A stretch of DNA of 50,010 nucleotides from Terriglobia bacterium. Its GTDB lineage: Bacteria; Acidobacteriota; Terriglobia; Bryobacterales; Bryobacteraceae. The translations under genes were made by a program, and so were the position numbers. The notes under the pieces were generated by a model, which saw only the letters and a list, made by a program, of their open reading frames with translations, had not been told where the DNA came from and ran no database searches. This document shows, in pieces, positions 11,258 to 15,193 of the stretch; position 1 is the stretch's first letter, and each line of letters starts with the position of its first letter. The stretch spans positions 1 to 50,010 of the forward strand of contig JAJPJN010000069.1 in the NCBI GenBank assembly GCA_021324185.1. The letters are read 5' to 3'.

Positions 11258-14134
11258 CTATTGAAAACTCCTTTTCGGCAGTGGGTCGACGTTTATCTGG
11301 AATGAAGCAGGGGCTAGTGCCGAGGCCGCGCCCGAAGGTGCCACCGGAAGCACGCCATCGCGGTGCCGCAGTCCCAGACCGAGAATTGCCGGTTCGAGCT
11401 CGTCATCGAATTGGACCGTAGCTTCTTCCGATTTGGCGAGTACTGCCGTTCGCCAACGAATTGCGCCGGCCGCTAGGGTGAGAACAGCTACTAGTGCAGT
11501 GAGTCGCAGAGGATGCTCCAGCAGGCTGCGTTCGAACGCGGCGCCTTGATTCAGCCGGTATGCGAGTCCAACGAAAGCCAGGAACGCCATATGGAAATAC
11601 GATCTGCCGGGCAAATACGAACAGGTGAACGGAATCTTCTGAAAGCCAGCGACTGAAAGCTCTGTCACGACGATTCCGATCAGTCCGACAATTACCATGT
11701 GGGCCGTTGCCGCGGGCCACGGCCACAAGATGAACAACGGCGCTGCAATTGCCGCCCAGACAGGCGCAACGGCAAGCCCGTAAATTGCCCGCCGGGCTGC
11801 TACGGCGCATTCCGGCACGCCGGGGGCGGGCACGATCCTAAAAATCCAGTTCGCGCGGAGCTCAAGCGGCATCGAGAACACAACGCGCGTTCCCACCACT
11901 GTTGCGCATATGATAAGGATGCTCGATACCAGCAGCGACACATTCGCCCTATACCAAGGGTCGGCTGCCGAGCCCACGTACTGGCCGAAAACAGGCACTT
12001 TCGATATAAAGATTCCCAACCCGAGCGCCATCCCAAGGTAGAAAATCAGAATCATCCGGTGCTGCCGGCTGCGTAACAAGGTCCGCACTGCGAATTGACC
12101 TACGGCCGTTTCGAGCGAATTCCCGAATGGCGGTAGCCACCGCAGCCGCGCAGAGGGCAGTATGTCGGATTGCTCGGCAATTTTTGGCAGCGTACGAAAA
12201 TAGCAGATTGTGTATGCGCCGGCCCCGCCGCACATCGAAATCGCGAGCCCCATCCAGGCCCGCTGCGCCCACGGAGCAAGCATGAACGGCAAAGGTCCAT
12301 TGAGCGCTTGAAACAATCCGAAAAACCAATACGACGGCAATAGCGACAGCAGCCCTCGGTTCTCCAGCAGCACCCCCGGTCCGGCAAACGGCCCTTGCAG
12401 AAAGTAGACCGCCAGCAAGAGACAGAAACAAGCTAGCTGCAGCAACGATGAGACGCGTAGAAATATCTGTCGCGGCAGCAGTTGCGCCACGCCCTGCACA
12501 GTCAGCACGCAACAGAAGACAAAAGCGCCCCCAGCGAATAATGCAATCCAGTAAGCGGCGAACGATCGCAGCGTGTTCACGAATCCGGCTCTTCCCGCCT
12601 CGAGCCACGTGGCAAGCGAAATCGCCGGCTCACCCGTTAACCTCTGCCGAATGTGCTCGCCCAGTTGCTCGGGATTGAGGATCAGGTTCGGGCCGGTATT
12701 GATCAGCACCACGACAGCGTAGCCGCCCTGCGGATGAAACAAAACAAAGCTGGTGTAACCTCCGGTTGCGCCGCTGTGCTCAAATATTCCGGAGTTGGCG
12801 CGATGAAACCATGCGAGCGCGATCCGGCGGTCATCTCCAACATCCGCACGAAGCCGGTGCGATTCTGTCAGCGCCGCCGCAAGCGTTGGAAATTTTCGCG
12901 GATTTAGTTGCGCTTCGAGATACGTGAGCATGTCACCAGCGGTCGTGCGAATCCCTCCGGCGCCTGCCAATGCATCCAAATCCCAGACATGAACAGGCCT
13001 GTGCGGCGCATTCCCGCTATGCCCCTGAATTAAGCGCTCCCATTGCTCCTGTGAAAGCGAAACGACGGTATCGTTCATGCCGAGGGGCCCGGTAATCTCC
13101 CGCCTCAGAAGCTCCGGGTAGGTCGTTCCCGCTCTGTTTGCGAGCGCCTGGCCCAGCAGTCCGAAACCAAGGTTGCTATACAAGTACGAAGGATGCGCTG
13201 GACGTCTCACCCCTCGTTTCGCGATGTACGCGTATAAATTCGCTGGATGATAGTCAGCATAGGGGTTCGTCTTGTCCACTGGATCGAAGTTATCGGGCAT
13301 TCGCGGCAACCCGGAGTGTTGTGTCGCCAGATCGAGCAGTGTAATCTCGTTGCCTTTCGGCTTGGCGACGGTAGCTTGCGGCAACAGCACACGCACGCGC
13401 TCATCTAAGGTAACTTTTCCTTCTATGACCATCTGCGCCAGCAGTAATCCCGTAAATGTCTTCGACACGGAACCGACCTCGAAGATTGAGTCGGGCTTCG
13501 CAGTTCCGTACGTGAACACACGCCGCCCGCCATGCTCCACCACTCCGATTGCGATCCCAGCGTCATCACCCAAGGCCAGCCTGCCGCTTCCGGGTTCTCG
13601 CGCCTTGGTCATATCGCGGTCCAGCACGGGCTGCAAGCCGGTTACGTCCACTGGAGCCAGCGCGCGATCATACTTGGGTGGTGGCAGCGTCGGCGCGGCT
13701 GAGAAAGCAAATGGCGCGACAATGCCCGGCAGAACATTGAGGCACAGCACCGTAATGCTCAACGCGGTGGCCACCGCGGCAACTTTGGACAAAAACATCG
13801 TGTGCGCCCGCAACGGCAACGGGCTAAGCACCATAACGTCGCGCCGGTCCGGGAACATGGACTCCCAACTCAAAACCGCAAACAAGCCGACCACGAGCAT
13901 CGTTGTGGCAATGATGAAGTGTTCCGTGGCCCAGGTGAACAGCAACCCCACTTCGGATGGAGTGCTGTCCGTCATGATCACGGCCGGAAGCAGCACCCAA
14001 AAACTGAAAAGCACGAGCAGCGCTGCAAATTGTCCGAGCAGTTTCCTGATATCCCCCTGGGGCGCGAGCAGTTCCAGGTCGATGATGCGAAAAAGAAATT
14101 CGCGATACAGCACGCGCAATTGAAGCTTCATCAC
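11258..14134 (-). CDS. ABC-2 type permease with an inserted serine beta-lactamase-like domain
   Basis: This 958-residue protein combines a membrane permease with a class C beta-lactamase/serine hydrolase domain. Residues about 33-54, 72-92 and 116-148 are three membrane segments. Residues about 160-505 form the hydrolase, with active-site SxxK at Ser222-Lys225 ('GSVSKTF'), YxN at Tyr319-Asn321 ('YSNLG') and the KTG-like HSG at 453-455, so the catalytic set is complete. Residues about 524-895 return to membrane helices ('TLRSFAAYWIALFAGGAFVFCCVL', 'AVRTLLRSRQHRMILIFYLG') typical of acidobacterial ABC permeases. Three helices before the insert put it outside the cytoplasm if the N-terminus is inside. 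The partner ATPase gene ends 10 nt upstream. Substrate unknown. No stop or frameshift marks the domain borders. Confidence 0.88.
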   Translation of the reverse strand: MMKLQLRVLYREFLFRIIDLELLAPQGDIRKLLGQFAALLVLFSFWVLLPAVIMTDSTPSEVGLLFTWATEHFIIATTMLVVGLFAVLSWESMFPDRRDVMVLSPLPLRAHTMFLSKVAAVATALSITVLCLNVLPGIVAPFAFSAAPTLPPPKYDRALAPVDVTGLQPVLDRDMTKAREPGSGRLALGDDAGIAIGVVEHGGRRVFTYGTAKPDSIFEVGSVSKTFTGLLLAQMVIEGKVTLDERVRVLLPQATVAKPKGNEITLLDLATQHSGLPRMPDNFDPVDKTNPYADYHPANLYAYIAKRGVRRPAHPSYLYSNLGFGLLGQALANRAGTTYPELLRREITGPLGMNDTVVSLSQEQWERLIQGHSGNAPHRPVHVWDLDALAGAGGIRTTAGDMLTYLEAQLNPRKFPTLAAALTESHRLRADVGDDRRIALAWFHRANSGIFEHSGATGGYTSFVLFHPQGGYAVVVLINTGPNLILNPEQLGEHIRQRLTGEPAISLATWLEAGRAGFVNTLRSFAAYWIALFAGGAFVFCCVLTVQGVAQLLPRQIFLRVSSLLQLACFCLLLAVYFLQGPFAGPGVLLENRGLLSLLPSYWFFGLFQALNGPLPFMLAPWAQRAWMGLAISMCGGAGAYTICYFRTLPKIAEQSDILPSARLRWLPPFGNSLETAVGQFAVRTLLRSRQHRMILIFYLGMALGLGIFISKVPVFGQYVGSAADPWYRANVSLLVSSILIICATVVGTRVVFSMPLELRANWIFRIVPAPGVPECAVAARRAIYGLAVAPVWAAIAAPLFILWPWPAATAHMVIVGLIGIVVTELSVAGFQKIPFTCSYLPGRSYFHMAFLAFVGLAYRLNQGAAFERSLLEHPLRLTALVAVLTLAAGAIRWRTAVLAKSEEATVQFDDELEPAILGLGLRHRDGVLPVAPSGAASALAPASFQINVDPLPKRSFQ

Positions 14135-14144
14135 GCTGGGCGCC

Positions 14145-14909
14145 TCAGGCCAGAATCAGATTTGCGATTTCCCGAGAAATGCTTTCCGTGTCCTGCTCCA
14201 CTGCCAACTGCGAAAAGATCTGTTCAAGCGTCGGCAGCGCCATCAGCGTCCGCAGCGCTTCAATGGAATCGTCGGCAACAATCGTTCCGCGGTGCAGAAT
14301 CACCACGTGAGAGCAGATCCGCTCCACTGTCTCGAGCTCATGCGAACTGAACAGCACCACTTTCCCGCGCGCGGCGAACTCTCGGACCAGGCTGCGCACC
14401 ACCAGCCCGAACGTCACATCGAGCCCGGAAAAAGGCTCGTCCAGCAAAATCAGATCGGGATTATGCAGCAGCGCCGCCGAAAGCAGCACTTTCTGCCGCA
14501 TTCCTTTGGAATAAGAAGATAAAGGCAGGTCTCGATCGCCGCGGAGAGAAAAGAGCCGCAGCAAACCGTCGATCTTATCTGCTGAAGAGTGCCGCGGAAG
14601 ACCTCGCAACTGCGCGACCATCGTTAGGTATTCCAGCCCCGTCAAGTGCGAATAAAGATGCGGCTCTTCGGGGACATAGCCGGTGCGCCGCTTGAATTCA
14701 AACCAGTTGCGCTCCACCGGTTCACCATCGAACAGAATGGCCCCCCGAGTCGGTTCTACCAGGCCGGTGATCATCTTCAGCGTGGTTGACTTGCCCGACC
14801 CGTTCGGCCCCAGGTAACCAGTAATCTCTCCCGCGCGCGCCGTGAAACTTACATCGTTTACAGCCGGAATGCTAGAGTACAGCTTTGTAACGCCACGTAG
14901 TTCGAGCAC
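14145..14909 (-). CDS. ABC transporter ATP-binding protein (CcmA/NatA-like)
   Basis: This is the ATPase partner of the permease directly downstream. The 254-residue protein has Walker A GPNGSGKST (34-42), a glutamate-type Q-loop region 'GYVPEEPHLYSHLTG', the signature 'SYSKGMRQK' (132-140), Walker B 'LILLDEP' with catalytic Glu158, and the switch histidine in 'SSHELETVE'. This pattern is usual for ATPases of ABC-2 exporters. The start is a GTG at 14909; there is no ATG that would keep the N-terminal 'MLELRGVTKLYSS'. It lies 26 nt after the small membrane protein gene and 10 nt before the permease gene. Confidence 0.95.
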   Translation of the reverse strand: MLELRGVTKLYSSIPAVNDVSFTARAGEITGYLGPNGSGKSTTLKMITGLVEPTRGAILFDGEPVERNWFEFKRRTGYVPEEPHLYSHLTGLEYLTMVAQLRGLPRHSSADKIDGLLRLFSLRGDRDLPLSSYSKGMRQKVLLSAALLHNPDLILLDEPFSGLDVTFGLVVRSLVREFAARGKVVLFSSHELETVERICSHVVILHRGTIVADDSIEALRTLMALPTLEQIFSQLAVEQDTESISREIANLILA

Positions 14910-14935: not shown

Positions 14936-15193
14936 CTACCTGCCGAGTCCCAAACAAGACAAAATTAGACGATGGCCGAGGATCAGGTTCACCAGGATAC
15001 CTATGCCAAACTTCCAAAGGCCCGACCGGAAGAGCCACTGCCGGCAAAGAGAAATAAAACAATCAAGCAGAAGCGCTATGCCGGTTTCAGATGTTTGCCT
15101 CAGATCAAAGATCCACAGCAATTCCTCCCCAAATCGTTCTTCGAACCCAATCGGATGCAACCAAAGTAAACCGCGATAAAGAGCCCGGATCAC
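14936..15193 (-). CDS. Small membrane protein resembling the N-terminus of ADOP permeases
   Basis: The 85-residue product begins 'IRALYRGLLWLHPIGFEERFGEELLWIF'. This resembles the amphipathic N-terminal segment ('LYR-L-YP--F-E-FG-EML--F') that precedes the MacB-like core in acidobacterial ADOP permeases and also occurs as a stand-alone gene in PadR-ABC operons. One or two hydrophobic segments follow (about 38-53 and 58-80). The GTG start at 15193 overlaps the PadR stop as GTGA, so translation is coupled. A role as accessory or assembly subunit for the ABC transporter is inferred from position only. Confidence 0.75.
   Translation of the reverse strand: MIRALYRGLLWLHPIGFEERFGEELLWIFDLRQTSETGIALLLDCFISLCRQWLFRSGLWKFGIGILVNLILGHRLILSCLGLGR

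Follow-up and report, generated by a model that had tools for sequence, protein, structure and literature searches.

What could an exporter gain from an enzyme carried inside its own membrane chain? The question is raised by one gene in a 50,010-nucleotide stretch of a Terriglobia bacterium (contig JAJPJN010000069.1; hereafter the window), where a reverse-strand frame stays open for 958 codons and joins an ATP-binding cassette (ABC) permease of the ABC-2 type to an S12 serine hydrolase. A preliminary description had placed a complete hydrolase with SxxK, YxN and HSG motifs inside the permease in one frame, and we confirmed this, with the motifs at Ser222-Lys225, Tyr319-Asn321 and His453-Gly455. 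Our analysis supports a hydrolase domain that faces outward, retains its catalytic residues and occupies an outer loop in the N-terminal half of a 12-helix exporter permease, next to whose gene lies one for an ATPase. Judged from sequence, a single chain in some soil Acidobacteria could thus combine an exporter permease with an enzyme able to cut molecules just outside the cell. The gene is laid out as follows (TM, transmembrane helix).

11258..14134, reverse strand: fused ABC-2 permease / S12 serine hydrolase, 958 residues, or 957 if the ATG at 14131 is the start
13679..14134, reverse strand: permease part 1, N-terminus and TM1-TM3, residues 1-152, matching unfused permeases
12593..13678, reverse strand: inserted S12 hydrolase domain with linkers, residues 153-514, in the outer TM3-TM4 loop
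13460..13471, reverse strand: SVSK, with nucleophile Ser222 and Lys225; Ser and Lys in 15/15 fused domains
13172..13180, reverse strand: YSN motif, residues 319-321; Tyr in 14/15 and Asn in 12/15 fused domains
12770..12778, reverse strand: HSG motif, residues 453-455; HxG in 15/15 fused domains
11258..12592, reverse strand: permease part 2, TM4-TM12, residues 515-958, from sequence matches and the predicted model

The inserted domain is a member of the S12 / PF00144 family. A Pfam search of the fused protein matched PF00144 over residues 192-482 with 187 bits (gathering cut-off 27), SxxK, YxN and the third motif of the family are all present, and the domain has the S12 fold in the predicted model. 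It had been described as a class C beta-lactamase/serine hydrolase, and only the second half of that label stood: the NCBIfam model bla_class_C gave 121.9 bits against a cut-off of 415, and KTG, the third motif of class C beta-lactamases, is absent, HSG taking its place in the window protein. Assignment to AmpH failed similarly (PRK10662.1, 137.1 bits, cut-off 266). The nearest stand-alone relatives (L187-L189, L191-L197, L199, L200 and L093) are 46-61% identical to the window's domain; all 13 have SxxK and YSN, 12 have HxG, and in 12 the domain begins 149-295 residues into the frame. These Acidobacteriota hydrolases contain the same domain, but where the fused proteins have permease helices they have a signal peptide or anchor (13/13, and 7/11 of more distant stand-alone relatives, by a simple hydropathy rule), in agreement with the earlier statement that the domain normally stands alone or has its own anchor. 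The predicted topology likewise puts the inserted domain on the outer side of the membrane, as had been proposed.

The outer parts of the protein adopt the ABC-2 / type V exporter permease fold in predicted models, so the concern that they might match no ABC permease family was not realized. In part 1 the modelled helices span residues 29-56, 61-88 and 110-146. Because VIA-align of the fused model covered only residues 160-501, an unfused permease was modelled alone, and residues 1-288 of the permease model (the first six helices) share their fold with ABCG transporters, NosDFY, KpsM, WzmWzt and TarGH. The membrane part of those transporters has six helices per chain, and we know of no hydrolase domain of this kind in any of them. 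The chains of a mycobacterial efflux pump (8k1n, 8k1o, 8k1p, 8k1m) are 509-530 residues long, leaving no room for a hydrolase domain, and are 8-10% identical. Sequence profiles were uninformative for the permease: its flanks matched no Pfam family and no ABC2 model over its cut-off, PF12698 was touched by 1 of 31 family members (E 0.47), a PF16949 scan of 151 genomes gave a single sub-threshold match, and a solved-structure profile search with the permease alignment returned nothing at E 1. Pfam, NCBIfam (best 25 of 46 families) and PADLOC gave nothing useful outside the hydrolase domain. Several permease relatives are extended at the C-terminus by a long stretch resembling a second, MacB-like permease (L043:6548-10843, L044:5503-9924, L050:4446-8651, L051:1274-5359, L052:1102-5928, L135:4902-9179 and L148:2865-7247). 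An hhalign comparison of the permease halves with each other and with six MacB-like tails, run without a positive control, found nothing.

The fused frame is not confined to one assembly. The hydrolase domain occurs in a frame longer than 900 residues in 6 of 399 genomes of the class (G000, G149, G195, G290, G296 and G356; at most five candidates scored per genome), and at E 1e-60 only the window's own genome had the fused form among 396 drawn from the phylum (two candidates scored per genome); because so few candidates were scored, fused forms may have been missed. A pattern scan of species genomes returned 100 relatives, and the best 80, all Acidobacteriota by title, were kept; 12 of them (L077-L088, where L079, L080 and L087 are the loci of G296, G149 and G290, respectively) encode a full-length fused protein. 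Adding the proteins of the window, G195 and G356 brings the number of distinct fused proteins to 15. A further frame, in L089, starts inside the hydrolase domain, and no plasmid record held 80% of the query in one place. The window belongs to a draft genome of 184 contigs and the 12 named records are metagenome-assembled, as might be expected had assembly or annotation merged two genes. However, fused frames recur across 12 separate named records, and also in two genomes with few contigs (listed as about 3 for G195 and 2 for G356); we therefore reject such an artefact as having next to no probability. Nor are all close homologues two adjacent genes, the outcome that had been set out as decisive against the fusion; close homologues are fused in many assemblies.

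Insertion always involves the same domain at the same site. We gathered 106 permease frames with the window protein as query, a set that favours near relatives; 94 were distinct, one of these was broken, and 15 of the 93 usable frames hold the insert (333-389 residues by projection). The three gene parts have similar GC content (0.57-0.59) and GC at third codon positions (0.64-0.72), so the insert is inconspicuous by composition. In seven pairs of fused genes the ratio of nonsynonymous to synonymous substitution rates (dN/dS) was 0.14-0.24 for the insert, 0.06-0.15 for the N part and 0.12-0.23 for the C part (dS 0.55-1.45, the larger distances being near saturation). These ratios indicate purifying selection on insert and host permease alike.

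Two trees bear on the origin of the fusion. In a tree of 42 hydrolase domains the 15 inserted domains form one clade (98/92) among stand-alone relatives; matches shorter than 230 residues (L089 and the broken copy of L079) and the duplicates L037, L038, L040, L176, L177 and L190 were left out. The permease tree, built with the insert removed, had 54 rows: 15 fused permeases, 35 unfused ones matching at 33% identity or more across 300 or more residues of the C part, and four outgroups; weaker-matching permeases and loci L037, L038, L040, L044, L053, L060, L061, L064, L065 and L190 were omitted. Here a single clade of 34 rows (96/98) contains all the fused rows, interspersed among 19 unfused ones. 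This tree requires five changes, at least three of them forced by starred branches, and monophyly of the fused permeases was rejected (p-AU 0.0035). Both trees would be accommodated by a single capture with subsequent loss of the insert, or with recombination between copies; repeated capture from one unsampled source is possible. Further permease matches occur in each of five fused-bearing genomes (G000, G149, G195, G290 and G296), and broken second copies lie beside the fused gene in L079 and L080, so that material for exchange is at hand. Pieces of a broken second copy beside intact ones were seen at L079:7625-8878, L080:1706-2743 and L054:4214-4534, and the second copy of L079 still has its N part, the opening third of the hydrolase domain and the C-terminal tail. 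An unfused permease, L095:1804-3594, groups with the window's fused clade and has a TM3-TM4 linker exceeding the usual length by about 20 residues, which might be the remnant of an insert since lost. In another relative (L130:4977-7829) the permease frame runs into a TIM-barrel isomerase-like stretch, with an unknown residue at the joint that may mark an assembly gap.

Capture with later loss or exchange, and the separate occurrence of permease and hydrolase in relatives, might suggest that insertion merely anchors the hydrolase to the membrane with no functional coupling to transport. We regard tethering of this sort as improbable, since the insert occupies the same position in all 15 proteins, the most divergent of the 12 aligned sharing 42% identity with the window protein, and since at locus L093 (SZAS TMP-7) permease and hydrolase are neighbours without being fused. 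There the gene directly downstream of an unfused permease encodes a secreted stand-alone hydrolase related to the domain (L093:6682-8481), and the adjacent pair supports a functional link between the two. The first ~240 residues of this hydrolase seem to consist of two similar repeats with no Pfam match. Three other permease relatives have a C-terminal alpha/beta-hydrolase domain (L041:5533-8280, L042:2990-5713 and L058:1765-4002), which supports hydrolysis as a theme of the permease family. Their nucleophile sites read GDQFG, GASFG and GHGIG, respectively; only L042 keeps GxSxG, and the tails of L041 and L058 look catalytically dead.

Upstream of the fused gene, in the same direction, lie an ATPase gene, a small open reading frame and a regulator.

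14145..14909, reverse strand: ABC ATPase, the presumed permease partner (PF00005, 110.8 bits; Walker A, signature-like YSKGM, Walker B and H-loop)
14936..15193, reverse strand: small open reading frame between regulator and ATPase, with relatives also in L077, L078 and L086
15190..15540, reverse strand: PadR-type regulator (PF03551, 63.4 bits, cut-off 27)

ATPase and permease genes are 10 bases apart, and a relative of the ATPase is directly upstream in 14 of the 15 fused loci, the 15th being at a contig end. PadR relatives accompany the fused genes of L077, L078 and L086, making 4 of the 15 fused loci in all, some of which have short flanks.

We tentatively favour, while rating it short of an even chance, a full-length 12-helix ABC-2 / type V exporter permease that has captured a secreted S12 domain in its TM3-TM4 loop and uses it to cleave an exported or competing compound. 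The capture into the outer loop would most simply have happened once. An amphipathic amide or ester would be exported under power from two copies of the neighbouring ATPase. Positioned above the exit, the hydrolase would cut this compound, or a similar competing molecule, on its arrival outside. Expression of the operon would be induced by the compound through the PadR regulator, as the usual behaviour of such regulators suggests. Sequence, trees and models bear out the fusion and where it sits, its conservation, the catalytic residues and the extracytoplasmic kin of the domain.

Several observations weigh against this proposal. At the insertion site 78 of the 93 distinct permeases have no insert (-7 to 23 residues); the trees imply its loss or exchange, so the pump works without it elsewhere. 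Most of the fetched permease relatives have no hydrolase and L079 lacks the Tyr, reading DSD for YSN, which argues against a strict need for hydrolysis; two fused members have His for Asn. Among the nearest stand-alone hydrolases only that of L093/L190 adjoins a permease of this family (~6 kb or less fetched on each side), and no ATPase above 45% identity is among the matches listed for the L093 locus. For the permease model, Foldseek alone returned nothing at E 0.001, ABC rows having E of at least 0.3 and probability up to 0.99, and hhalign of the permease against 16 ABC2_membrane_2 proteins gave nothing; that test had no positive control, because ABC2_membrane_2 against MacB-like tails also gave nothing.

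The regulator would also fit an efflux operon, and so would the ATPase, whose best NCBIfam model is that of drrA, an ATPase of daunorubicin resistance (198.4 bits, short of the cut-off of 312). The domain would then destroy an incoming amide, ester, D-peptide or beta-lactam outside while the pump clears the same compound from the membrane, the two sharing only their target. The excerpted text of PMC8127968 describes S12-type D-peptidases, BogQ and TriF, that inactivate peptide antibiotics. Against such detoxification, which we hold to be unlikely though a serious contender, stand the score below the class C beta-lactamase cut-off and HSG rather than KTG.

The domain is held at both ends, by TM3 and TM4, as opposed to one anchor, and permease movements might therefore switch the hydrolase, or binding by the hydrolase might switch the ATPase, much like a mechanotransmitter. 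The two alpha/beta-hydrolase tails of three that lack the GxSxG serine would fit binding domains. However, the ATPase gene is also present with most of the insert-free relatives listed, and thus has another job, and Ser and Lys are kept in all 15 fused domains; we consider an ATP-gated enzyme or sensor improbable. The mechanical form of the idea, in which the permease cycle moves TM3/TM4 so that ATP hydrolysis inside gates catalysis outside, or acylation outside reports to the ATPase, seems to us just as doubtful.

In this family an enzyme was captured in an exporter's outer loop, apparently with a single origin, and the fused, unfused and next-door versions that coexist in related genomes permit direct tests of what fusion adds. 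Covalent probes directed at the serine of the hydrolase part also offer a way to approach what is transported by a pump family that had no Pfam match in this analysis.

Among the papers listed by searches of the open PMC library, we recognised none that describes an S12 domain inside an ABC-2 permease. A close likeness is to ZmaM, EdeA and PamJ, in which an S12 peptidase is joined to an ABC half-transporter domain in one chain, as the excerpt of PMC9889268 describes; ClbP, a relative of these peptidases, has its catalytic domain outside the membrane (PMC9889268). In the same excerpt the third residue of the Tyr motif in prodrug peptidases is given as Ser or Thr, and PF00144 proteins with membrane helices but no neighbouring non-ribosomal peptide synthetase (NRPS) genes were set aside by the authors. 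The fused domains, in contrast, have N in 12, H in two and D in one of 15 at that place. Whereas the half-transporter of ZmaM-type proteins is C-terminal to the ClbP-like peptidase, the window protein holds its domain between TM3 and TM4 and has its ATPase in a separate gene. An NRPS link was unsupported in the window's 184-contig genome, where one condensation-domain fragment was found, on contig C2 and not C31. We therefore rejected membership among the ZmaM-type prodrug peptidase-transporters on domain order, the Ser/Thr of the Tyr motif and NRPS neighbourhood. By analogy, the two kinds of protein, each with an S12 peptidase and an ABC transporter part on one chain, may nevertheless work alike in principle.
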